The notes under the pieces: generated by a model
Database searches by the model: none
What the model was told of the DNA's origin: nothing
Seen by the model: the letters and a program-made list of their open reading frames with translations, nothing else
Shown: piece by piece, positions 13,042-50,446 of the stretch
How the letters are laid out: each line of letters opens with the position of its first letter
Numbering within the stretch: position 1 is the first letter of the stretch
Origin: Sphaerochaeta halotolerans
Lineage (GTDB): Bacteria > Spirochaetota > Spirochaetia > Sphaerochaetales > Sphaerochaetaceae
NCBI RefSeq assembly: GCF_003429665.1
Contig: NZ_QUWK01000009.1
Span: 1 to 64,000 of the forward strand
Direction of reading: 5' to 3'
Length of the DNA: 64,000 nt
Made by a program: the position numbers and the translations under genes

Positions 13042-14037
13042 ATGAAAAAAATGCTCGTGTCCGTATTATTGGTCACCCTGCTCATTGCACCGGTGTTCGC
13101 ATAAGGTACTTCTGAGAGCTCATCCCAGAAGCAGATTGTGCTTCGTCTTGCTGACAACCAGCCTATCGGTTATCCAACTGTCCTTGGTGACGAGGAATTC
13201 GCACGTTTGGTAGGAGAGTACACCGACGGTCGTATCAAGATTGAAGTGTACCCTCAGGGCCAGCTTGCTGATGAGAAGAGCGCCATCGAACAGGTTCAGT
13301 TTGGTGGAATTGACTTCACTCGTGTCTCCATTTCTCCCCTTGCATCCTTCCAGCCATTGTTGAATGCGTTGCAGATGCCGTATCTCTACCGCGATGCGAA
13401 CCACATGTGGAACGTACTCAATGGTGAAATTGGCCAGTTCTTCCTTGACTCCATGGAAGAGAAAGGCTTTGTTGGACTGGTATACTACGATAGTGGTGCA
13501 CGCTCCTTCTACAACACCAAGAAGCCTATCTACACTGTCAAAGATCTGGCAGGTATGAAGATTCGTGTTCAGGAGTCAACTCTGATGATGGGCTTGGTAC
13601 AGGCTCTCGGTGCAGTTCCAACCCCGATGGCTTACGGAGATGTCTACAGTGCACTGCAGACCGGTGTTATCGACGGTGCTGAGAACAACTGGCCTTCCTA
13701 TGACTCCTCCAGCCACTACGAAGTCGCCAAATATTACTCAATTGATGAGCACACCCGTGTTCCTGAAATGATCATTGCTTCCAAGATCACCATGGACAAG
13801 CTTTCTGCCGAGGATCAGGCTATTATCAAGAAAGCAGCCAAGGAATCCCAGGCAGTGCAGATTGCAGCATGGGCAGACTATGAGAAGAAGAGCGAAGCGA
13901 AGGTTCGCGCAGCTGGTTCACAGATCAATAAGATCAATGACCAGGCAGAGTTTGCAGCAGCAATGGCTCCTCTCTACGAGAGTCAGCTGAATGCAGAACA
14001 GAAAGCTTGGGTTGAAAAGATCAAAGCTGTCAAATAA
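13042..14037 (+). pseudogene. TRAP transporter substrate-binding protein DctP, interrupted by in-frame stop
   Basis: A strong ribosome site (GGAGG) and ATG at 13042 start a perfect 20-residue signal peptide, MKKMLVSVLLVTLLIAPVFA. The next codon is TAA (13102-13104). The frame then continues without interruption for 311 codons as a full DctP-type protein (AGMKIRVQES; GALGAVPTPM; TGVIDGAENN). Other binding proteins in the window have FAQG at this point, so CAA to TAA is the simplest explanation. Either the gene is recently inactivated, the stop is read through, or the base is a sequencing error. The rest of the TRAP operon is intact. The GTG at 13138 used by the ORF track would lack a signal peptide. 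Confidence 0.8.
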
Positions 14038-14053
14038 CGAATACGTGATTTAC

Positions 14054-14088
14054 AAAAGGTGTGGAGCCAAGCTGGCTCCACACCTTTT
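14054..14088 (+). promoter_or_regulatory. 16-bp perfect hairpin between dctP and dctQ
   Basis: AAAAGGTGTGGAGCCA, loop AGC, then the exact complement ending CTTTT. It lies 16 nt after the dctP stop and 30 nt before the dctQ ATG. It looks like an attenuating terminator or 3' stabiliser that keeps binding protein in excess over the permeases. Confidence 0.75.
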
Positions 14089-14118
14089 GCTGTAATTCTG
14101 TCGAATTGGAGGTATCCC

Positions 14119-14613
14119 ATGGAGCAGTTCAAGAAAGTACTTGACTCCCTGTTCGCCTGGATTCTCAAAGTGGCCATGGTGATGTTGACGGCGATGGTGG
14201 TAATCGTCTTCCTCAACGTTGTCCTACGGTATGGATTCCATTCTGGTGTCCATTGGGCTGAAGAGATATCCCTTGTTATCGTTATCTGGTTTACATTCAT
14301 CTCCATGGCCCTCGGTGTCAAGGAGAACCTGCACATCAACATCACTGTGCTTCCCCGGAAGTTACCAGAGAAATTTTTTATTATCCTCGATGTCATCAAG
14401 GATGCGCTTGAGATACTCATCGGTGCCATATTGATACTATTTGGTTGGAAACTGACACTAAACGGTGCCAGGTCCTTCCTGCCGGCAACCCATATTCCCA
14501 ACTCAATCAACTATGTAGTACTTCCTATCGTGGGAATCTTCATTATTCTCTACGCTGTACTCTATTTGCTTGAAGACTTGAAACGCTATAAGAAAGGAGG
14601 AGTACAGTCATGA
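14119..14613 (+). CDS. TRAP transporter small permease (DctQ)
   Basis: A 164-residue protein with four hydrophobic segments (starting WILKVAMVMLTAMVVIVFLNVVLRY), typical of DctQ, the four-helix subunit partnering DctM in Na+-driven TRAP uptake of organic acids such as uronates or dicarboxylates. The ORF track begins at 14059 inside the hairpin. The ATG at 14119 has GGAGG 8 nt upstream. Its stop overlaps the dctM start (ATGA). Confidence 0.9.
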   Translation: MEQFKKVLDSLFAWILKVAMVMLTAMVVIVFLNVVLRYGFHSGVHWAEEISLVIVIWFTFISMALGVKENLHINITVLPRKLPEKFFIILDVIKDALEILIGAILILFGWKLTLNGARSFLPATHIPNSINYVVLPIVGIFIILYAVLYLLEDLKRYKKGGVQS

Positions 14614-15908
14614 TGAATGCTTCAATGGGCTCCTTTATCCTGATTGGCTCCTTTGTTGTGATGCTGATCTTCAAGTTCCCGATTACGTTCTCCCTCTTTC
14701 TCTCCTCCGTTTTTGCCGCGATGTACCTCAATATTCCGATGATGTCCATTGTGCAGCGGTTGGTTAGCGGAGTGAACTCATTCAGCCTTTTGGCCATCCC
14801 GTTCTTCATCCTCAGTGGTGAGATTATGAGCCAGGGTGGCATCTCCCGTCGCTTGGTAGCCTTTGCAAATGCCCTCATCGGTAGGGTGCGTGGCGGGCTT
14901 GCACAAGTGAATATCCTTGCATCGATGTTCTTCGGTGGTATCAGTGGAAGCGCTGTTGCCGATGTCTCCTCCATTGGAGCCATGCTTATCCCGATGATGG
15001 TCGATGACGGATATGACCCAGACTTCGCTGTAGCAGTCACTGTTACCAGTGCATGTGAAGGGATCTTGATTCCTCCCAGCCATAATATGATTATATTTGC
15101 CATGGCTGCCGGTGGTGGTGTCTCAGTAGGAAAGCTCTTCCTAGGAGGGCTCCTCCCAGGTGTAGGCCTTGGCCTTATGCTCATGATCCCCACAGCAATT
15201 ATTGCCTATATGCGTGGTTACCCCAAAGAGAAGGGATTTGGTTGGAAAAAGACCCTCAAGCTGGCACGTGATGCATTCTTTGGGCTTTTTACGATTCTTA
15301 TCATCATGGGTGGTGTTATCAGTGGGGTATTTACTGCCACTGAGTCCGCAGCTGTTGCAGTGGTTTACTCGTTCATCATCACCTTCTTCGTCTATCGTGA
15401 GATTCCCCTCAAGCAGATGGGCTCCATCCTCCGCAACTCCCTGAAGACCTTGGCAATGGTTATGAGCTTGATTGCCGCAGCATCCTCATTTGGGTACCTG
15501 ATGGCATTTCTACGTATTCCCCAGGCTGTCACCAATGGCTTGTTGGCAATAAGCGGAAATCGTGTGGTCTTGCTTCTCTTGATCAACCTGATGTTGCTGG
15601 TGCTTGGAACCATCATGGATATGGCTCCGTTGATCATCATAACCACGCCTATTCTCTATCCAGTAGTGGTTACCCACCTGGGGATGGATCCCATCCAGTT
15701 TGGTATTATGATGATCCTCAACCTGGCAATTGGACTCACCACGCCCCCGGTTGGGAGTGCGCTCTTTGTTGGTTGTTCAATCGGGAAGATCCCCATCGAG
15801 AAGGCGACCAAGGCAATCATGCCGTTCTATATCATGATGGTTGCTGATCTGATGCTGGTGACCTTCTTCTCTCCGACAACGATGTTCCTGCCTTCTTTGA
15901 TGAACTAG
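14610..15908 (+). CDS. TRAP transporter large permease (DctM)
   Basis: A 432-residue membrane protein with about 12 hydrophobic segments, of normal DctM length. Family landmarks include LLAIPFFILSGEIM near residue 65, GGISGSAVADVSSIGAMLIPMM near 110-130, and ITTPILYPV near 345. It is the ion-coupled translocator subunit. The ATG overlaps the dctQ stop by 4 bp, and a second ATG one codon later is also possible. An inverted repeat about 25 nt downstream may end the operon. Confidence 0.93.
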   Translation: MMNASMGSFILIGSFVVMLIFKFPITFSLFLSSVFAAMYLNIPMMSIVQRLVSGVNSFSLLAIPFFILSGEIMSQGGISRRLVAFANALIGRVRGGLAQVNILASMFFGGISGSAVADVSSIGAMLIPMMVDDGYDPDFAVAVTVTSACEGILIPPSHNMIIFAMAAGGGVSVGKLFLGGLLPGVGLGLMLMIPTAIIAYMRGYPKEKGFGWKKTLKLARDAFFGLFTILIIMGGVISGVFTATESAAVAVVYSFIITFFVYREIPLKQMGSILRNSLKTLAMVMSLIAAASSFGYLMAFLRIPQAVTNGLLAISGNRVVLLLLINLMLLVLGTIMDMAPLIIITTPILYPVVVTHLGMDPIQFGIMMILNLAIGLTTPPVGSALFVGCSIGKIPIEKATKAIMPFYIMMVADLMLVTFFSPTTMFLPSLMN

Positions 15909-39998: not shown

Positions 39999-40190
39999 CT
40001 ACTCCCTAATTCGCTTATAGGCATTCCTCTTACGCCAGAGATGGGCGAACATGAATTTCTCCCCTTTGTTCCTGTCTTGTTTTTCCAGGTATGCAAGGAT
40101 TTTTCTGTGTTCTTCCTGGGTTTGCATCTTTCCTTGGTTGCTGAGGCGTTGGTAGAAGAGCGGGCTGTTTGTGTTCAGGTTCAGCCTACT
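39999..40190 (-). pseudogene. C-terminal remnant of a GntR/FCD regulator
   Basis: The frame ending at 39999 reads LFYQRLSNQGKMQTQEEHRKILAYLEKQDRN...FAHLWRKRNAYKRI. EEHRKIL and the later AHL are the last two metal-binding histidine helices of an FCD domain. The upstream three quarters, including the winged helix, are missing and a TnpB fragment begins at about the breakpoint. It converges with the DUF1667 gene 14 bp away. Confidence 0.55.
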
Positions 40191-40722
40191 GAAGGCAGGG
40201 AGCTTCTTGGAAAGCATTCCCAAGAACTATTTCTGCTTCTACGATGTCGGGCTTCTTAGGCTCAAAGAGCGGTCGTCCACCATGTTCATCTCCACAGACG
40301 CTACGTTCCCGCAGTCCACGGGTACATGCCCAATCCCTCAGGTTCATGCTGGCGTTCCTGTCACGTTCGACCAGCTTCCCGCAGGATGGGCAAATCCACT
40401 CCCTGACAGAGTGGGGTAAATTCCTATATGTTGTTTTACACGTATTGCAAGTCTTCGAGGACGCGTAGAAGCGAGGTGCCAGCATGAAGCGCTTCCCTCT
40501 CTCCCTGCACTTCTGCTCCATCCTCATCCGGAAGAATCCAAACGAGGCATCACATAGGGATTTGGCCAGCTTGCGGTTCCTGAACCTTGGAAAGCCCGCT
40601 TCCTTTCTTTGGAAGAATTTCTTGTAAGCGGTGTCCAGATTCCTCGATGCCATCTGCAGGGCCTGGGAGTTGACCTCGCCAAGCCAGGGATAGACTTTCT
40701 TGAGAATACCTTTCATTGCCAA
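40186..40722 (-). pseudogene. tnpB: IS200/IS605-family TnpB remnant
   Basis: A 178-residue frame with the C-terminal TnpB zinc finger (CNTCKTTYRNLPHSVREWICPSCG) followed by DRNASMNL, the last RuvC segment with its catalytic aspartate. Earlier, ALQMASRNLDTAYKKFFQR and GFPRFRNRK are N-terminal TnpB motifs. Only about 35 residues separate these halves, where full proteins (370-400 residues) have over 150, so the central RuvC-I/II region is deleted. No tnpA is present. It is a dead element fragment. Confidence 0.8.
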
Positions 40723-42337: not shown

Positions 42338-44680
42338 CTACTTGATCTTCTTGAAGATATAAATCCTTGAACCGAAGTCTCCCAACACTCTGGTCATGGC
42401 ATCATAGCCAGTCCCACCGAACTGTTGGTTTAGCTTGATACCTGCCCAGGCAACCTGCTCACCGGTAACCCGGTAGTGTTCAACCTCACTGTCAAGGGTG
42501 ACTGCTTTGCTGATGGTGTCCTGGGCGATACCTCCCTCAGTGATGGGGAGCGGGCTCACCTGGTTGAGTAGATTTCCGAACATTTTGATGTCGATACGCT
42601 GTTGACGGGGGAACACCTCATAGACAGCATTCAGGTCAACTATTTCCACGCGTAGCTTGTCAGAACCTGGATTTGAAGGATTGAGCTTCTGGGCGAAAAG
42701 TACCAGAAGTTCACTCTTGTCCTGGCTTGCTACTGCCCAGACTACCTGGTTGGAGGTGCTGTTTGCCAGCTTCACCCTCGTAAAGGTTCCATACTGCAGC
42801 AAGGCGCGGTGTGCCTTGTAGAAGGCAATCTGTGCCTTAATGGCATCCTTCTGCTGCCCTTTCAGCTTCGTGACATCCAGTTCATAGCCAAGCACGCCGA
42901 ATGCTGCAATGTTGAACCGTGACTCGAGGTCGGTTCTTCTCAGCGTCTGGTGGTTGGGAGAGTCACTGACATGGCTGCCCATGGTTGAGAGGGGGTAGCC
43001 ACAGCTGGTGCCTTCCTGTATATACAACCTGCTGAGAGCATCGGTGTTGTCACTGGTCCATGTCTGTGGCATGTAGCAGAGCATCCCTAGGTCGAAGCGG
43101 TTGCCTCCACTCGCACATGACTCAAAGAGTACATTGGGGAAGGCTGCAGTGAGCTTCTCAAGTAGTTCATAGAGTCCCAGGATATAGCGATGGAAGAATT
43201 CACCGTGGTCTTTCATTTCTCTGTTTGTGCTATACATGTCACTGAATACACGGTTCATGTCCCACTTGATGTAGTTCACGTTTGCAAAATGCCAAACATC
43301 TGAGAGTTGCTTGAAGAGGTAATCCCGTACATCTGGTCTGGTAAGGTCAAGAATGTACTGGTTCCGTCCCACACTTGGGCGCCTGCCTGGTATGGCGACC
43401 ATCCAGTCGGGGTGTTTCTTATACAGCTGGCTTTCAATGCTCACCATCTCCGGTTCCACCCAGAGGCCGAACATCATGCCAAGCCTGTGTACTTCGAGGG
43501 AGAGGTTTTCCAACCCTGAAGGGAGTTTCTTTGGATTTACGGTCCAGTCTCCTAGACTGGTGGTGTCATCGTTGCGGAGTCCAAACCATCCGTCATCGAG
43601 CACGAACAGCTCAATACCGAGGTTGGCACTCTCCTTTGCCAGGTTGATGAGTTTGTCCTCTGTGAATTTGAAGTAGGTTGCTTCCCAGTTGTTGATCAGA
43701 ACCGGTCGTTCACGGAACTTCCAGGGGCCACGAATGATGTGGTTGTTGATGAAGTGGTGGAAGTTCTGGCTTGCTCCATTGAGTGCATCGGGCGAGTAGG
43801 TCAGTATTGCCTCAGGGGTTTGGAATCGGTCTTGCGGGGCGAGGACCCAGCTGAAGGTTGCTGGGTTGATTCCCGTCAGTACCCTGACCTTTCCATAGGG
43901 GGATGTTTCGACCAGTTCGCGATGGTTGGAGCTGTAGATGAGGTTCATCCCGATGGTCTCTCCATTCTCCTTGGTGAGGAAGATGCAGGGGTTGTGATCA
44001 GCGCTGCTGACGCCACTCTTGCTGTCGTTGATCATAATGCCTGGGGCAAGAGGACGTTCATGCATGTACCGCTCACGGGACCATGCTCCATCGAAGGTGA
44101 CCAGCTTCCAGTCATCAGTGTCTAGATCGAGCTGTGCTGATGCAAGGTTCTTGATAGTCACTTCCTCAGTGCTGTCGTTGTACAGGGTGGCACGCCTCGT
44201 GATGACATTGCTGTCTTCGAAGACGGTGTAAGTAAGGGCAAGTCGCAGGGGGAGGCAAGTTTCCTTGAGCATAACTTCCAAGGTGGTACAGGTACTCTTG
44301 TCCCCATAGGACTCAGGCAATCCACTGAAGGTTCTGGGCTTTCCAGGGAGAATGCGGTAGCTCTTGACGATGAAGTCGAGTGTTTGCATGCCACGGGAAT
44401 AGGAAATGTCGACAGAACTCTCTCGATAATCACCTTTGCCCATGGTAGAGTATTCCATGCAGAGGTTGGTGAAGAAGAGGGTTGGATGGTCACTGTCGTA
44501 GGCAGTACCGGTGCCGATGCTGATACTCCTTTTCTCTGCCAATGCATCGATACTGATGGTCTCTTTGCTGAGATATCTGCCATAATAGAGGTGTTCAAGG
44601 TGCCCTGTTTCGGTTATGGCGAACAGGTAGGTGGTTTTCTTTGTGGATAGGTTGAACAGTCGGTCCTTCTTGGAAATCAT
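42338..44680 (-). CDS. Alpha-galactosidase, glycoside hydrolase family 36
   Basis: A 780-residue cytoplasmic GH36 enzyme of normal length. After an N-terminal beta-supersandwich come ELFVLDDGWFG (about 357-367), LWVEPEMV (about 406-413), YIKWDMNR with nucleophile D474, ESCASGGNRFD (about 520-530), and WTSDNTDA with general acid/base D544. These two aspartates are 70 residues apart, as in characterised family members. It releases terminal alpha-galactose from raffinose, melibiose or stachyose. No signal peptide. AAGGAG lies 9 nt before the ATG. It diverges from the mutarotase-like gene at 44784. Confidence 0.95.
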   Translation of the reverse strand: MISKKDRLFNLSTKKTTYLFAITETGHLEHLYYGRYLSKETISIDALAEKRSISIGTGTAYDSDHPTLFFTNLCMEYSTMGKGDYRESSVDISYSRGMQTLDFIVKSYRILPGKPRTFSGLPESYGDKSTCTTLEVMLKETCLPLRLALTYTVFEDSNVITRRATLYNDSTEEVTIKNLASAQLDLDTDDWKLVTFDGAWSRERYMHERPLAPGIMINDSKSGVSSADHNPCIFLTKENGETIGMNLIYSSNHRELVETSPYGKVRVLTGINPATFSWVLAPQDRFQTPEAILTYSPDALNGASQNFHHFINNHIIRGPWKFRERPVLINNWEATYFKFTEDKLINLAKESANLGIELFVLDDGWFGLRNDDTTSLGDWTVNPKKLPSGLENLSLEVHRLGMMFGLWVEPEMVSIESQLYKKHPDWMVAIPGRRPSVGRNQYILDLTRPDVRDYLFKQLSDVWHFANVNYIKWDMNRVFSDMYSTNREMKDHGEFFHRYILGLYELLEKLTAAFPNVLFESCASGGNRFDLGMLCYMPQTWTSDNTDALSRLYIQEGTSCGYPLSTMGSHVSDSPNHQTLRRTDLESRFNIAAFGVLGYELDVTKLKGQQKDAIKAQIAFYKAHRALLQYGTFTRVKLANSTSNQVVWAVASQDKSELLVLFAQKLNPSNPGSDKLRVEIVDLNAVYEVFPRQQRIDIKMFGNLLNQVSPLPITEGGIAQDTISKAVTLDSEVEHYRVTGEQVAWAGIKLNQQFGGTGYDAMTRVLGDFGSRIYIFKKIK

Positions 44681-44699
44681 AGAATGGTACTCCTTGAAC

Positions 44700-44749
44700 T
44701 TGGAAACGGTCTATGCTACCAGTATACTGTCATTGAGCTGTTTTTAACA
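44700..44749. promoter_or_regulatory. Divergent promoters sharing one palindromic -10 (AGTATACT)
   Basis: AGTATACT at 44721-44728 reads as TATACT on both strands. For the plus gene TTGGAA (44700-44705) is 17 bp upstream. For the minus GH36 gene TGTTAA (44744-44749 complement) is 17 bp upstream. The two polymerases could not occupy the site together. Confidence 0.45.
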
Positions 44750-44783
44750 CCATGTTGTGGAGCTTTTAAAAGGAGAAGTAGGT

Positions 44784-46028
44784 ATGGATATTCGTCGACT
44801 GAGATTATGGGAAAGCAGGAATGCCACTGTTCTTACCAACGACCTGATCCAGGTGGTGTTGGAAGACCAGGGTAGTATGGTGCTGGAACTCAGTGCGCTC
44901 TTGGAAAAGGGTGGACGGATTAATGCTCATCTGATGCCATATTACCGTGGAACGGGTACTTCTGTGTTCAGCGATGAGAATGCCGAGTTTTGGAAAACCA
45001 GTCCGTTCCTCTACCAGAAAGCAGGATCCTATTTCAGTTTCCCAAACTATGGTCCTTCCTATGATGGAATCCAAGGACTCCAAGAGCAGAGTGGGTTCAC
45101 AGCCTCTGCGTATTGGATGGTGGAGCGCTATGGAACAGATCCTGAGTTTGGAGGGGTCTGGCTTATGAGCATGGTACGAAACAGGAAGGAACACTACCAG
45201 GTACGGAAGATTGATATGTTGCTTCCGAACCATCCTGTACATTATACGGCAATTTTCATTACCAACAACGGGAGTGAAGACCTGCTTGCCAATACTGCTT
45301 GGAATAATGAGGTTGGCTCTCCTTTTTTGGAGTCTGGTTGTGTGCTTAATGCCAGTGCACAGAGTTGGAGGACTGGGCCGGAAGAATCCCTTACCGGAGT
45401 TGTTTCACGCTTGCAGCCCAACGTTCAGTTTGATGACTGGAAGAAGGCTCCTCTGAAGCAAGGAGGAACTGTCGATTTGACTGAGGTTTCTCCCCCCATT
45501 GGAAAGACTGACTTTATCAGTGGGGCAATCCCAAGGCTCTCCAACCTTGGTTGGTCAAGTGTGATCAACCCGAGGCAGCAGATGGTCTACTTTACCTTCT
45601 TCCCCGGCCCTCAGGCATTGGGAGAAGGGGAGATCGGGCTGAATTTCAACAACTTCCTCTTTGACTATGGTGGGCGTACTGAGACTCCTTGGGCGCTGTA
45701 TCCGGGAGGGATGAGTCAACAGTACTCGATTAACTGTGGATCGGGTACAAACAATCTGTATGCCGGTACCAAGGAAGCATCTGCTTCTGATACCTTGTTC
45801 GATGCTGATACTACGGTAATCATACCAGCAGGAGAGACGCGTTCTCTCTACTACGCAACAGCTTTTGCTCCGTACGACAACAACCGAATTGGCGGGAATT
45901 TCTACACTGTAGAGCAGGTGGAGGAGGGACTCCTCCTCAAGAGGACGAGGAGTTACGCAATCATCCCAGCTGACTCGGTATTCCACTGTATCAAGACCCT
46001 GGCAAAACGTGTAATGGCAACTGATTAA
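44784..46028 (+). CDS. Hypothetical galactose-mutarotase-like (beta-sandwich) protein
   Basis: A 414-residue cytoplasmic protein without signal peptide or membrane segment. The pattern of tryptophan- and aromatic-rich strands (NDLIQVVLEDQGSMVLEL; HLMPYYRGTG; NTAWNNEVGSPFLESG) resembles aldose-epimerase-superfamily or DUF-type carbohydrate-binding sandwiches, but no catalytic motif was recognised. Being divergent from the GH36 gene it probably acts on galactosides or binds a sugar. The ORF track starts at a GTG (44757). The ATG at 44784 follows AGGAG and is preferred. Confidence 0.75.
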   Translation: MDIRRLRLWESRNATVLTNDLIQVVLEDQGSMVLELSALLEKGGRINAHLMPYYRGTGTSVFSDENAEFWKTSPFLYQKAGSYFSFPNYGPSYDGIQGLQEQSGFTASAYWMVERYGTDPEFGGVWLMSMVRNRKEHYQVRKIDMLLPNHPVHYTAIFITNNGSEDLLANTAWNNEVGSPFLESGCVLNASAQSWRTGPEESLTGVVSRLQPNVQFDDWKKAPLKQGGTVDLTEVSPPIGKTDFISGAIPRLSNLGWSSVINPRQQMVYFTFFPGPQALGEGEIGLNFNNFLFDYGGRTETPWALYPGGMSQQYSINCGSGTNNLYAGTKEASASDTLFDADTTVIIPAGETRSLYYATAFAPYDNNRIGGNFYTVEQVEEGLLLKRTRSYAIIPADSVFHCIKTLAKRVMATD

Positions 46029-46030
46029 AA

Positions 46031-46058
46031 GAAAGGCCACCCCGGTGAGAGGGTGGTC
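46031..46058. terminator. Bidirectional terminator
   Basis: GGCCACCC, 8-nt loop, GGGTGGTC. On the minus strand it is followed by TTTCTTTT, serving the secreted-protein gene at 46083. On the plus strand it lies 7 nt after the mutarotase-like stop. Confidence 0.7.
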
Positions 46059-46082
46059 TTGGACAGACAAGTTTGTATTGGT

Positions 46083-46607
46083 TTATTGAGCATAATATTC
46101 TACGTAAACGGTTCCAGTGTAGGTAGCTTGTGTCGCATTGGCTGCTTCGGTAGCATTGAGTTGTACATTAATGGGATAGCTGTCAACAACCATTTGATTA
46201 ACGCCAGTTCTGTTAGTAATCTCAACTGAAGCAGGAGGCGTTGCTTCAGTGGTGTACTGAACGGATCCAACTTTAACAGTGTAGTTGATAGGGCTTACCG
46301 TGCCATTTGTCAGCTGTGTTGCTCTGAGCTTAAGAATATAACCATCTCGGTTATTGGTCTTGGTCAGTACATACCCAATGGCGGGGTCAGTCAGTTCATC
46401 TTCAGCTGACATTTCGTAACTATCTAGAGCAGTTGCATTCTGGAAGCTTGATACATCAGTTGCCGTTTCTTCAGCAATCTTTATAACGTTTACACCCTGG
46501 ATCACTGTAGAGACATCAAAAGTATCAGATGTAGTCGGATCAACAGCAAATACAGTGAAGGAAGCGAGAGCCAGTACCAACAAAGTTGCAATAATATTCT
46601 TCTTCAT
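46083..46607 (-). CDS. Small secreted protein A (unknown family)
   Basis: A 174-residue protein. Residues 1-21 are a signal peptide (KKNIIATLLVLALASFTVFA, cleaved before VDPTTS). The mature part is rich in Thr, Asn, Val and Ala, has no cysteine and looks all-beta. It ends with NATEAANATQATYTGTVYVEYYAQ. The last strands resemble pilin-like or spore-coat-U-like/DUF4402 surface subunits, but this is only an impression. A related gene lies at 48332. The ATG at 46607 is 8 nt from AAAGGA; the track's ATG at 46616 overlaps that ribosome site. Confidence 0.8.
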   Translation of the reverse strand: MKKNIIATLLVLALASFTVFAVDPTTSDTFDVSTVIQGVNVIKIAEETATDVSSFQNATALDSYEMSAEDELTDPAIGYVLTKTNNRDGYILKLRATQLTNGTVSPINYTVKVGSVQYTTEATPPASVEITNRTGVNQMVVDSYPINVQLNATEAANATQATYTGTVYVEYYAQ

Positions 46608-46665
46608 TTTAAACATCCTTTAGGAGCTACGCTCCAGTGCAAGTTATCTATGCTTTCCCAAGCAC
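46608..46665 (-). promoter_or_regulatory. Structured leader of secreted gene A, shared with gene B
   Basis: The leader has a GTGC...TTGGGAAAGC...AACTTGCAC segment, then the hairpin GGAGC-GTA-GCTCC (46623-46635), then the ribosome site AAAGGATG. The same order occurs before gene B. AAAGGATGTTT resembles a CsrA target overlapping the ribosome site. Confidence 0.55.
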
Positions 46666-46671
46666 ATTTAT

Positions 46672-46700
46672 ATAATAGTAATTCTAAGGACTTATGTCAA
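46672..46700 (-). promoter_or_regulatory. Promoter of secreted gene A
   Basis: Minus strand TTGACA (46695-46700), 17-bp spacer, TATTAT (46672-46677). Perfect -35. The bases TTGACATAAGTC are identical in the promoter of gene B. The gap from 46701 to 47049 is AT-rich and shows no other recognised feature. Confidence 0.75.
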
Positions 46701-47026
46701 CAGGTGTGATTAGTTTTTTGAAAATACTGAGCAATGTAATAGAAAATATTACAATAATATGTTTAAGTTATTATAATATAAAAGAATAAAAAATTCTTAA
46801 CGTAAGATAAACTTATGTCAACTTATAGCAATCAAAGTTTGATATTTGAGCATGTTTTACTATGGTTATACAAATAGTACCAAAATAATTCTTTGTAATG
46901 TACTAACTATGACAGAAGTTGGTGAAATATATGCCTATTTACTGATAATCTATACTGATTGTGACAATATCTCATTAAATATGGGTAGAAGTTTGTAGAA
47001 GTGGCTGCATGTAGATCGAAGAATAA

Positions 47027-47055
47027 TTCTAATACAAGTGGAATTATCCTATAAT
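47027..47055 (+). promoter_or_regulatory. Possible promoter of the AraC/GyrI-like gene
   Basis: A consensus TATAAT at 47050-47055 with a weak -35 TTCTAA (47027-47032) at 17 bp. Confidence 0.4.
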
Positions 47056-47132
47056 CTGAAACTGAGCAAGGACGGTCAAGCTCAAGTTTTGTTTCTCAGC
47101 TAGAGTGCAGTCAATGGAGTTGTAAGGTGACT

Positions 47133-48014
47133 ATGAGAGAAGAACACAAAGAAGCGGTCCAAAGGATGCTGGAGTTTATTGATGAGCATCTAAGTAAGCC
47201 GATCACACTACATCAACTGGCACAGGCTGCCCAGTATTCCCCCTGGCATAGCGCGCGAATGTTCAAGGAGACTACTGGTATGGCTCCATTCACCTACTTG
47301 AGGCACCGACGTTTGAGTGAAGCCGCAAGAAGGTTGGAGAAGCCAGAACAGAAAGTGGTGGATGTGGCGTTTGATTTTGTGTTTGATTCTCATGAAGGAT
47401 TCACAAGGGCGTTCTCAAAACAGTTTGGGATGAACCCGAATGAGTTCAGGCAGCACTGGAATGAGTTTGTCACGAATAGAGCTGCGCGTCGCACAACAAC
47501 CCCAAAACAAGATTCTGAAGGAGAAACTACAATGAAGACTGTATTCGTACAAGTGGTGGATCGCCCGGAGCGAAAAGCTGTTGTGAAGAGCTCGCAGAAG
47601 GCAACTGACTACTTTTCCTATTGTGAAGAGGTTGGTTGTGATGTTTGGGAGGTGCTGAGTTCTATCAAGGAAGCTCTCTACGAGCCGGTAGGGATGTGGA
47701 TGCCTGAGAATTTGAGAAGAATCGGAACTGGTGAATACATGCAGGGGGTAGAGGTTCCCAAAGATTTTGCTGGAATTGTTCCCAAGGGGTACGATCTGAT
47801 TGATCTCCCTGCTTGCCAGATGATGATATTCCAGGGACCTCCGTTTGAAGACGAGGACTTTGAAGAAGCAATAGCAGGACTGTGGGATGTGATGAAGAGG
47901 TATGATCCAACATTCTACGGGTTTACCTGGGCAGACGAAGATGGTCCCAGGTTCCAGATGGAACCATTGGGGTATCGAGGATATATAGAAGCAAGGCCTT
48001 GTAAGAGGGTCTGA
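47133..48014 (+). CDS. AraC-family regulator with GyrI-like effector domain
   Basis: A 293-residue regulator. Residues about 1-105 are the AraC DNA-binding domain: LHQLAQAAQYSPWHSARMFKETTGMAPFTYLR and VAFDFVFDSHEGFTRAFSKQFGMNPNEFR. A linker with QDSEGETTMK leads to a GyrI-like small-molecule-binding domain (about 130-293). Rob/SoxS/BmrR-like proteins of this plan respond to small hydrophobic ligands. The start at 47133 follows AAGGTG; the track's 47127 is a GTG. It stands between the two secreted-protein genes, both on the opposite strand, and could regulate them. Confidence 0.9.
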   Translation: MREEHKEAVQRMLEFIDEHLSKPITLHQLAQAAQYSPWHSARMFKETTGMAPFTYLRHRRLSEAARRLEKPEQKVVDVAFDFVFDSHEGFTRAFSKQFGMNPNEFRQHWNEFVTNRAARRTTTPKQDSEGETTMKTVFVQVVDRPERKAVVKSSQKATDYFSYCEEVGCDVWEVLSSIKEALYEPVGMWMPENLRRIGTGEYMQGVEVPKDFAGIVPKGYDLIDLPACQMMIFQGPPFEDEDFEEAIAGLWDVMKRYDPTFYGFTWADEDGPRFQMEPLGYRGYIEARPCKRV

Positions 48015-48043
48015 AATAATAGATAAACCATTGAATGTATTGC

Positions 48044-48076
48044 AGCCTCCCCAAATAGGGGAGGCTGTTTGATTTT
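48044..48076 (+). terminator. Terminator of the AraC/GyrI-like gene
   Basis: AGCCTCCCC, loop AAATA, GGGGAGGCT, then GTTTGATTTT, 30 nt after the stop. The following 48077-48271 shows nothing recognised. Confidence 0.75.
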
Positions 48077-48271
48077 CGGTAGAGTAAACAGGCCAAGATG
48101 AGAATCTTGTTCAGTAGGAACGAAGCCAGTCCAGACAGATCCAATGTTGGTCGTTTTGGATTCTGTGACAATCTTATCTGGAACCCGGAATCACCAATTC
48201 GCGCTATCAGAGGCTTAAAACACCACTCTCTGAGGAAAATGTGACTATTCTTCCTGGAACCGAAAATTATA

Positions 48272-48311
48272 TTAAAAGAAGGTTGACTAAAGTTGGCCAA
48301 CCTTCTTTTAA
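48272..48311 (-). terminator. Terminator of secreted gene B
   Basis: A 14-bp perfect stem (TTAAAAGAAGGTTG with CAACCTTCTTTTAA) around a 12-nt loop, 20 nt after the gene B stop. An A/T-rich tail is present on both sides. Confidence 0.7.
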
Positions 48312-48331
48312 ATTTCTTTATTGTTAAGTAT

Positions 48332-48859
48332 TTATTCAGCAGTAATATTAAAAGTTATCACACCAGTGTAACCGCCTGTTGCAGCTGAGAAATAGTCGTT
48401 TTGATTCAGCTCTGCTGAAATTTTGTGACTTACAACTATCATTCCGTTTTGTGCTTCAGTTGCATTAATCGCCCTTACTACAACTGCACTCTCAGTAGTG
48501 TTTGTTATATAATTTGCATTATTTGCAGTAACTGTATAATTGATAACTGGAGCATTTGTTAAAGTTTCATTAGTAGTTTCCATAGCTTCAGCTGACATTG
48601 AAATGCTATAAGGTACATTTGTTGCCATTGTTAAGTATGCATCCTCAACAGTATCGCTCCCATCTTCAACGAAAGTAATGGCTATCGAATCCTCAGACGT
48701 TAATCCTAAGAAATGTCCATAATTATTAAGCGTAGCAGGCGCTACAGTAATTTTAAAATTACTTTTCCCAGCAACATTTGTCGTTAAATCTAATTCCGCA
48801 GCAAACACGCCAGCCATTCCGATTACCAGTACCAATAAGATTGCAATAGTCTTTTTCAT
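48332..48859 (-). CDS. Small secreted protein B (paralogue-like to protein A)
   Basis: A 175-residue protein. The signal peptide MKKTIAILLVLVIGMAGVFA is cleaved before AELDLTT. The mature part is cysteine-free, rich in Asn/Thr/Ala and predicted all-beta. It ends INATEAQN...GGYTGVITFNITAE. Length, signal peptide, a shared NATEAxN motif and the closing YTG strand link it to protein A at 46083, though overall identity is low. Probably a surface or pilus-like subunit; function unknown. The ATG at 48859 is preferred over 48868, which overlaps the ribosome site AAAAGG. Confidence 0.8.
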   Translation of the reverse strand: MKKTIAILLVLVIGMAGVFAAELDLTTNVAGKSNFKITVAPATLNNYGHFLGLTSEDSIAITFVEDGSDTVEDAYLTMATNVPYSISMSAEAMETTNETLTNAPVINYTVTANNANYITNTTESAVVVRAINATEAQNGMIVVSHKISAELNQNDYFSAATGGYTGVITFNITAE

Positions 48860-48922
48860 ATCATTCATCCTTTTTAAGGGCAGTGCCCTTGTGCAAGTTA
48901 TTAAGCTCTTTTCCCTAAGCTT
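48860..48922 (-). promoter_or_regulatory. Structured leader of secreted gene B
   Basis: Contains AGCTTAGGGAAAAGAGCTTAATAACTTGCAC-like sequence, the hairpin AAGGGC-ACT-GCCCTT (48876-48890) and ribosome site AAAAAGGATG. Arrangement and the TAACTTGCAC block match the gene A leader. Confidence 0.55.
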
Positions 48923-48928
48923 GTCTGT

Positions 48929-48957
48929 ATATTAATAAGAAAGGAGACTTATGTCAA
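48929..48957 (-). promoter_or_regulatory. Promoter of secreted gene B
   Basis: Minus strand TTGACA (48952-48957), 17-bp spacer, TAATAT (48929-48934). The -35 region TTGACATAAGTC is identical to gene A's. Confidence 0.75.
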
Positions 48958-49134
48958 TACTAAACTAAAAAAAGTTTGAAAAAACCTGATAATTTTTTTA
49001 TAAATTTCTAAATATTTAAATTATATAGATTTAGGAAATATCCATCTTATTATAACTTGTGACAAATGGGTGTGTTTAAGACAGTATTCCATCAGTTTAC
49101 ACTTTTTGTCTGGGTCTTGGGTAAGAGCTAATTG

Positions 49135-49148
49135 GGGTATATATACCC
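49135..49148. repeat. Perfect 14-bp palindrome
   Basis: GGGTATATATACCC in the AT-rich gap between secreted gene B and tRNA-Cys. Possibly a regulator site; no gene is adjacent. The rest of 48960-49370 is AT-rich with nothing else recognised. Confidence 0.4.
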
Positions 49149-49373
49149 TACTTACGTTATAAGTACGGTGGAAGCAAAAGCCGGTTTTTCTGTATGAACT
49201 TGAATAAATATTCAGCTATGAGCGGTATTTTTAGTCGGTTAGCGCTTTTTATGAGTAAATACACAGGCAATATGCATGGATCGTGTAAGAACCCTTGCAA
49301 GCTGATATGTGCCAGGGTTATTGATATATATAAGGAACCGAGGTTTTATGCTTGGTAAGGATTTATATAGAGA

Positions 49374-49402
49374 AACAGCCGCTGAATTGTTCAGCGGCTG
49401 TT
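49374..49402 (-). terminator. Terminator of tRNA-Cys
   Basis: AACAGCCGCTGAA, 3-nt loop, TTCAGCGGCTGTT (13-bp perfect stem), 4 nt past the tRNA 3' end on the minus strand, followed by TCTCTAT. Confidence 0.7.
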
Positions 49403-49406
49403 AAAG

Positions 49407-49478
49407 AGGTGCCAATCGGATTCGAACCGATGTATAAAGGTTTTGCAGACCTTTCCCTTACCACTTGGGTATGGCACC
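49407..49478 (-). tRNA. tRNA-Cys (GCA anticodon)
   Basis: The minus strand reads GGTGCCATACCCAAGTGGTA at the 5' end. The acceptor stem GGTGCCA pairs with TGGCACC, the discriminator is U (usual for Cys), the anticodon loop is CTGCAAA giving GCA, and the T-arm is GGTTCGAATCC. The 3' CCA is not encoded. Confidence 0.95.
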
Positions 49479-49496
49479 AATGCTCATTGCATGATG

Positions 49497-49525
49497 AACA
49501 TAACAGGTTTTTAACCGATAATCAA
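49497..49525 (-). promoter_or_regulatory. Promoter of tRNA-Cys
   Basis: Minus strand TTGATT (49520-49525), 17-bp spacer, TATGTT (49497-49502), about 20 nt before the tRNA 5' end. Confidence 0.5.
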
Positions 49526-49663
49526 GTAGAATTGGATTCTTTCTTGCCGGAGAGTAGCTGGTCCTCTGCTTTTCTCTTGTTCTTCCATTGACAGATGAAC
49601 GTTTATGATTGTATGCTCTGTTTGTAACGGGTTAAAAGTACAAAAACATTCAAGGAAGTGTTC

Positions 49664-50446
49664 ATGTCAAACATACCAGCAAGCAGACAGCACGATATTC
49701 TCACTCTCATTCGTCAGGAGGGGAGTGTGACGGTCAGCTTGCTAGCTGAACAGTTTTCTGTCAGTGAACTTACCATCAGACGTGATCTCGACCACCTTGC
49801 AAAGAAAGGCTTGGTTGAACGTACCCATGGAGGGGCGACTGCCAGGAGAAATCTTCCGGTGGAACCAGACTACCTGCAGAAAGCAAGTGAATACCCCCAA
49901 GAGAAAGCAGCCATTGCAGAAAAAGTCGCTTCTTTCGTAGAAGAAGGCGATACGCTCTACATCAACAGTGGTTCCACCACGTTTGAAGTGATTAGGGCAG
50001 TAGTTGCACTGGAGAAGCGAGTGACCATTGTCACCAACAACATCGATGCCATCTACCTCTGTAAAGAGAGTGAAATTGTCAGACTTATTCTAGCCGGTGG
50101 CATCTACCGAAACCGAAGCCATTCAGTCTCTGGTTCTCTCTCTTCTCTGATCATAAGCCAGATACATGCAAACAAGGCCATCATAGGAGTGGATGGGTTT
50201 TCCCCATCCGCAGGACTCACTACCCCCATCTTAGAAGAGGCTGAGACCACCCGGGCCATGATCGAGCACACGGTGGGCAACGTGTTTGTCGTGGCAGCAA
50301 GCAACAAGATTGGGGTGGTGTCAAACTTCAAGACTGTCTCTCTTGACCAGGTCGATGCCCTGGTAACGGATGAAAAGGGAGCAGAGATAGTTAAGCAAAT
50401 GGAGATTCCAGAGAGTCTGGAAATCATCGTAGCAACCAATATATAG
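49664..50446 (+). CDS. DeoR/GlpR-family transcriptional regulator
   Basis: A 260-residue repressor. The DeoR helix-turn-helix is at about 5-60 (RQHDILTLIRQEGSVTVSLLAEQFSVSELTIRRDLDHLAKKGLVERTHGGA). The sugar-phosphate sensor domain has TLYINSGSTTFEV, VTNN and GVDGFSPSAGLTTP. These regulators respond to phosphorylated sugars. It precedes the malate/lactate dehydrogenase and malic enzyme genes by 9 bp, suggesting it controls them. The ATG at 49664 follows AAGGAAG; the track's 49658 is a GTG. Confidence 0.92.
   Translation: MSNIPASRQHDILTLIRQEGSVTVSLLAEQFSVSELTIRRDLDHLAKKGLVERTHGGATARRNLPVEPDYLQKASEYPQEKAAIAEKVASFVEEGDTLYINSGSTTFEVIRAVVALEKRVTIVTNNIDAIYLCKESEIVRLILAGGIYRNRSHSVSGSLSSLIISQIHANKAIIGVDGFSPSAGLTTPILEEAETTRAMIEHTVGNVFVVAASNKIGVVSNFKTVSLDQVDALVTDEKGAEIVKQMEIPESLEIIVATNI

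Follow-up and report, generated by a model that had tools for sequence, protein, structure and literature searches.

The spirochaete Sphaerochaeta halotolerans carries, within the 64,000-nucleotide window analysed here (the whole stretch from position 1 to 64,000 of contig NZ_QUWK01000009.1, assembly GCF_003429665.1), two genes, A and B, for predicted secreted proteins that are preceded by near-identical promoters and leaders. The best explanation of the whole, which we consider probable, is that A and B are slots in which a fixed module of promoter, leader and signal peptide precedes an exchangeable cargo with a pilin fold. The two genes lie as follows:

46083..46607, − strand: gene A, predicted secreted pilin-fold protein of 174 amino acids (AlphaFold pLDDT 89.7)
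48332..48859, − strand: gene B, predicted secreted pilin-fold protein of 175 amino acids (AlphaFold pLDDT 85.4)

The original prediction, made from the letters of the window, had the coordinates and lengths of both genes right, and its account of the products as cysteine-free and rich in asparagine and threonine holds: neither contains cysteine, and the two residues make up 23-26% of the mature parts. The proteins are homologous (31% identity, E = 6e-10), and the relationship between the pair, their promoters and their leaders is real and wider than first described. The NATEAxN motif said to unite them is indeed present in both, but it is not a family trait; it occurs in no other of the 54 family members described below, and its positions in A and B do not align.

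When used as queries, A and B each match 24 of 26 Sphaerochaeta genomes, often in several copies and in some genomes in tandem. An iterated profile over 35 stretches (the window and 34 fetched loci) gave 59 matches, 54 of them longer than 160 amino acids, and a third leader-bearing member is present in the window's own genome (G000:C48:149010-149604). The family grows sparse in other genera of the same bacterial family. Neither A nor B scores above the cut-off of any Pfam or NCBIfam family, and literature searches returned nothing on these proteins or on an RNA motif in Sphaerochaeta.

Probable exchange of the mature coding sequence

In close sister species the proteins of neighbouring genes are 90-98% identical to those of the window, whereas the mature parts of A and B reach only 25-36%. 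Promoter and leader are 88-99% identical in the sisters, and the signal peptide of B is 93-100% identical. DNA homology ends inside the signal peptide, about 60 nucleotides into B (around codon 20) and 36-47 nucleotides into A (around codons 12-15), and resumes at the stop codon of A and about 75 nucleotides past that of B. The sister DNA is conserved over codons 1-12 of A and codons 1-20 of B, with the remainder replaced.

The sister alleles of A fall into two classes, L065/L066/L087 (86-95% identical) and L067/L072 (98%), with 25-30% identity between them, despite 94-98% identity in the gene next to A. Between classes the mature DNA is 46-53% identical, as compared with about 48-49% in a codon-shuffle null, and within a class it is 85-97% identical. 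In a tree of 50 mature sequences the B alleles of the sisters pair with genes of G001, G002 and G003 or with the third member from the window's own genome; their A alleles pair with genes of G004 and G005. A single clade per slot was rejected for both B (p = 6.5e-5) and A (p = 0.0043). As an internal control, a different pair of family members in these sister genomes remains 98% and 87% identical, so the replacement is specific to the slots. Conserved flanks, sharp breakpoints and alleles incongruent with the neighbouring genes are the marks of allelic replacement. Given the fixed 5′ ends, the sharp breaks and the incongruent alleles, both slots behave, on comparative grounds, like expression sites whose cargo has been exchanged. 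The most likely route, we infer, is recombination with alleles of other Sphaerochaeta. The original prediction did not include this replacement of cargo behind a constant 5′ module, which is the main point of the locus.

An alternative is that the mature parts were never exchanged, and that very fast diversifying point evolution took place in situ while the 5′ elements were held under constraint. The alleles do share a similar length, the same fold and the same signal peptide class, and rapid evolution is common in surface proteins. Against this, divergence within a class equals that of the neighbours (mature A 95-98% identical in L065/L087 and L067/L072) and identity between classes is that of random DNA. 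Furthermore, several sister alleles have their partners, at starred support, among the genes of distant species, and these genomes contain a second family locus that is conserved. We therefore regard divergence in place as improbable.

Intragenomic gene conversion from silent cassettes, as at Neisseria pilE, Borrelia vlsE and Treponema tprK, would also give conserved ends around a variable interior. The genome holds further family members, and one sister B allele pairs with the window genome's third copy. Set against this, a profile search of six genomes found two to five members in each, otherwise intact apart from one decayed copy of A in G020. The search revealed no array of promoterless or truncated copies, and paralogues from the same genome are distant from A and B, so that we give this route little credence. 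The pilE/pilS, vlsE and tprK systems are generally known to combine an expression site with a constant 5′ end and a variable interior, as the slots do; in contrast to them, the six Sphaerochaeta genomes showed no silent cassette array.

Exchange of cargo between fixed ends has other well-known counterparts in Borrelia OspC and the SlpA cassettes of Clostridioides difficile, where fixed flanks and a signal peptide likewise enclose swapped mature sequence and allele and species trees conflict. Unlike these, the Sphaerochaeta alleles fall to 20-36% identity, variation at one slot is independent of that at the other, a covarying RNA leader is part of the fixed module, and the host genus is one of non-pathogenic spirochaetes.

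A structured RNA leader

The leader within this fixed module has a constant order of elements: a 5′-terminal hairpin with a conserved RGGRAA loop, a ACUUGCAC box, a second hairpin and the ribosome site. For A and B these are placed as follows:

46608..46670, − strand: leader of A, R1 covariance-model match, 36.8 bits
46649..46666, − strand: hairpin 1 of A, TGTGCT-TGGGAA-AGCATA, lying where transcription is predicted to start (sequence, helix covariation)
46637..46644, − strand: ACTTGCAC box of A, nearly invariant in 50 leaders
46623..46635, − strand: hairpin 2 of A, GGAGC-GTA-GCTCC (sequence, covariation)
46616..46621, − strand: ribosome binding site AAAGGA of A (sequence)
48862..48927, − strand: leader of B, R1 covariance-model match, 34.2 bits
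48903..48922, − strand: hairpin 1 of B, AAGCTT-AGGGAAAA-GAGCTT (sequence, covariation)
48891..48898, − strand: ACTTGCAC box of B (sequence, leader alignment)
48876..48890, − strand: hairpin 2 of B, AAGGGC-ACT-GCCCTT (sequence, covariation)
48868..48873, − strand: ribosome binding site AAAGGA of B (sequence)

The purine-rich hairpin loop, the TAACTTGCAC block, the second GC hairpin and AAAGGA had been recognised in the original prediction and are confirmed here. The ATG within the leader's GGATG is probably not the start codon; the conserved start, MKK, comes 8-9 nucleotides later. The spacing from the −10 box suggests that hairpin 1 would form at the 5′ end of the transcript.

An alignment of 38 leaders with MAFFT and RNAalifold gave no useful structure, because loop lengths displace the 3′ arm, and was replaced by a covariance model seeded with eight leaders. 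This model detects 46 leaders in 23 of the 26 genus genomes, of which 45 lie directly upstream of family genes and the remaining one precedes a decayed remnant. Two of the leaders, both in G008, revealed family members that earlier single-sequence searches had overlooked. Over 46 distinct rows the covariation score was 0.430, compared with 0.234 in a shuffled control and at most 0.143 in slid controls, in an alignment whose fitting to the structure favours this score; 12 of the 13 pairs had changed on both sides, and 92.8% of cells pair. Running the model on related genomes has therefore yielded both further copies and covariation, in support of the proposed selection on RNA structure. There is little doubt about the structure itself, since entirely different stems keep the same loop, as in L219, where the wholly different stem CGGATTC/GAATCCG encloses the same AGGGAAA loop.

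Several loci depart from the usual arrangement of leader and gene. At L070:5030-5150 a promoter and leader lead into a decayed signal peptide, beyond which lies an unrelated gene; this is the remnant of a lost family member. At L070:14967-15190 (G016) ATGAAAG and some 150 nucleotides of GC-rich, repeat-like DNA separate the leader from the point where the signal peptide starts again. In L068 (G020:C1:1339187-1339844) gene A is interrupted by in-frame stops, while its leader and promoter are intact.

No Rfam family matched either leader (window positions 44000-50000, E up to 1), nor the leader in the loci of six relatives at gathering cut-offs. A scan of 84,980 species for the promoter and box found true leaders only in Sphaerochaeta/Spirochaetales records; its other hits were without the leader architecture, and matches to the leader pattern in viral contigs were due to chance. 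A small leader peptide was considered and rejected, as the other leaders do not keep the short frame of A.

It could be argued that the likeness of leaders and promoters reflects only the shared ancestry of duplicates, or homology for recombination, and that the RNA has no function of its own. The 5′ module is, after all, a conserved cassette end. DNA homology alone would not maintain pairing, however, and the helices vary by compensating pairs around a fixed loop and box, as the L219 stem illustrates. We consider a functionless RNA quite improbable.

The suggestion that the AAGGATG sites are CsrA targets, with the leader as a CsrA-controlled translation switch, is scarcely credible. Most aligned leaders do have A(N)GGA both in the loop of hairpin 1 and in the ribosome site, as in CsrA-repressed leaders such as the well-known Bacillus subtilis hag, but conservation extends to the ACUUGCAC box and hairpin 2, which CsrA would not need and which set these leaders apart from those of the hag type. 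A search for csrA (PF02599) in 17 Sphaerochaeta genomes, a number of them complete, found it in none, whereas the E. coli, B. subtilis and T. maritima controls were detected. This excludes CsrA as the leader's partner, short of a CsrA-like protein too diverged to be recognised.

Promoters, upstream sites and neighbouring genes

Upstream of the leaders and between the two slots we located the following features:

46672..46700, − strand: promoter of A, TTGACATAAGTC, 17-nucleotide spacer, TATTAT (sequence)
48929..48957, − strand: promoter of B, TTGACATAAGTC, 17-nucleotide spacer, TAATAT (sequence)
46797..46821, − strand: palindrome TTGACATAAG-TTTAT-CTTACGTTAA, 120 bp upstream of the A promoter, candidate operator (footprint in 7 sister species, palindrome scan)
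49055..49071, − strand: block ACCCATTTGTCACAAGT upstream of B, candidate regulatory site (footprint in 6 sister species)
49150..49164, − strand: near-palindrome ACTTATAACGTAAGT upstream of B (footprint in 6 sister species)
47127..48014, + strand: gene for a 295-amino-acid AraC-family regulator, Rob/SoxS/MarA-like, between A and B (family match)

Both genes have the shared promoter originally described, with TTGACATAAGTC, the 17-bp spacer and a −10 box, and a search for further copies of promoter and leader found the same architecture before family members throughout the genus. As TTGACATAAGTC has only two copies in the 2.93 Mb genome and the same architecture recurs genus-wide, the likeness between the A and B promoters and leaders is beyond chance. 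TTGACAYAAG is found upstream of 47 of the 54 family members. The extended −35 element TTGACATAAGT is mostly retained at the family genes examined in other genera, although the leader RNA was not detected there. A second conserved family pair (L095:7926-9344 and L096:8503-9919) has promoters beginning TTGACATACG or TTGACATAAGT and is without a structured leader.

The 10-mer TTGACATAAG has only five sites in the window's genome, namely those at A and at B, one upstream of A, and two that are unrelated. The palindrome upstream of A forms a conserved island in drifting sequence in seven sister species, the most diverged of which still shows few changes, and is likely to be an operator. Upstream of B, the ACCCATTTGTCACAAGT block is a possible regulatory site, and the near-palindrome ACTTATAACGTAAGT has the core AACGTAAG in common with the operator-like site of A. 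This arrangement suggests that the extended −35 may overlap a half-site of a dimeric regulator.

The AraC-family gene reported between A and B is present and proves to be Rob/SoxS/MarA-like. Given that it occupies this position in only five sister genomes, those of the close sisters, it is an improbable regulator for a promoter found across the genus. In three sister species, insertion sequences lie around slot B or between the slots (L067:9813-11507; L068:9831-11912 and 13431-14702; L072:6854-7681). Judged by eye these are of different types (IS4/IS1634-like, IS66-like and IS3-like), and the A-B interval is an insertion hotspot.

The neighbour of slot A (44757-46028, + strand, 423 amino acids) is kept across the genus and matches no Pfam or NCBIfam family over cut-off. 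In more distant species (L063, L064, L069, L070, L075, L079 and L084) a slot lies near a conserved gene block, and in four of these loci (L063, L064, L069 and L075) a cobalamin riboswitch is found near that block. Elsewhere in the window, an open reading frame at 40186-40722 (− strand) resembles, by eye only, the C-terminal part of an IS605-type TnpB with CxxC zinc-finger motifs.

Pilin-like cargo and a proposed mechanism

The predicted structures of A and B are related and resemble pilins of the CFA/I-CS17 class in having an incomplete Ig-like fold, in agreement with the earlier suggestion of a pilus-like system. In Foldseek searches with the AlphaFold models, the best matches of B were CfaB (E = 3.1e-5, probability 1.00), CS17 (E = 1e-4) and CooA, and A retrieved PapA, CfaB, Caf1 and CooA among its matches (CfaB probability 1.00, E = 6.6e-3). 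The family profile A2 also matched the CS17 subunit among PDB sequences (E = 2.8e-6). A and B share with the major subunits of class 5 fimbriae (CFA/I, CS1, CS17) their predicted fold, size, unstructured N-terminal stretch and YTGTVTF-like closing strand. In contrast to class 5 fimbriae, they have no fimbrial operon alongside and are single-gene units with their own leader, in a genus whose searched genomes lack both usher and PapD-like chaperone. Usher (PF00577) and TcfC (PF16967) had no match over cut-off in 27 genomes including the window's own, with the E. coli control detected, and the PapD-like chaperone (PF00345) was absent from that genome and all same-genus genomes searched. We therefore call the proteins pilin-like, presumably displayed at the surface, and not chaperone-usher pilins. 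A chaperone-usher pilus is not supported, as the genus genomes searched gave no Usher, TcfC or PapD_N match over cut-off, and an operon of this kind suspected beside L095 proved to consist of GntR regulators and a sucrose-phosphate enzyme.

These data allow us to propose how the slots may work. The 5′ module of each slot would comprise the TTGACATAAGT promoter overlapping a regulator half-site, the two-hairpin RNA leader and the signal peptide; with the 3′ flank also conserved, the mature coding sequence between these ends would be exchangeable. Replacement would most likely proceed by homologous recombination through the conserved ends, with incoming alleles from other Sphaerochaeta, and the 5′ module would place every newly arrived cargo under one and the same control of transcription, translation and export. 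Acting as RNA, the leader would probably offer its RGGRAA-loop hairpin and ACUUGCAC box to a trans-acting factor other than CsrA, or these may stabilise the mRNA, and hairpin 2 would set access to the ribosome site. After Sec export, the protein would be displayed as a pilin-like subunit by a non-chaperone-usher route. The conjectural parts of this model are exchange by recombination, display on the cell surface, the action of the leader, the assembly of the protein and the selection for swapping. Its more far-reaching version, in which promoter, leader and signal peptide make up one portable platform for expression, the leader has a dedicated trans-acting partner and the pilin-fold cargoes are assembled without chaperone and usher, we put forward only tentatively.

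A number of points weigh against reading A and B as slots with exchanged cargo. No close donor allele was found for the A or B of the window, the best being 35-38% identical in the mature part, and phage, plasmid and viral collections yielded none. For lack of a close donor, exchange is deduced from incongruence and boundaries, with no transfer caught in the act. Sampling is one genome per species, and at 20-35% protein identity the deep nodes of the tree are weakened. Synonymous conservation of the signal peptide is 0.71 as compared with 0.58 in reference genes, an excess modest enough to leave its role as a recombination arm putative. The Foldseek E-value of A (6.6e-3) is weak and TM-scores are only 0.43-0.54.

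Pathogens under immune pressure are known to exchange surface antigens behind fixed ends. Here the same pattern occurs in a spirochaete genus that is not pathogenic, at two slots independent of each other and with breakpoints within the signal peptide, and the swapping is accompanied by a genus-wide covarying leader that is absent from Rfam. This leader also serves as a tag, locating family members overlooked by single-sequence searches. The slots thus offer a system in which to ask what drives surface swapping without adaptive immunity, be it phage, protists or partner binding, whether pilin-fold subunits can be assembled free of an usher, and what binds the leader.

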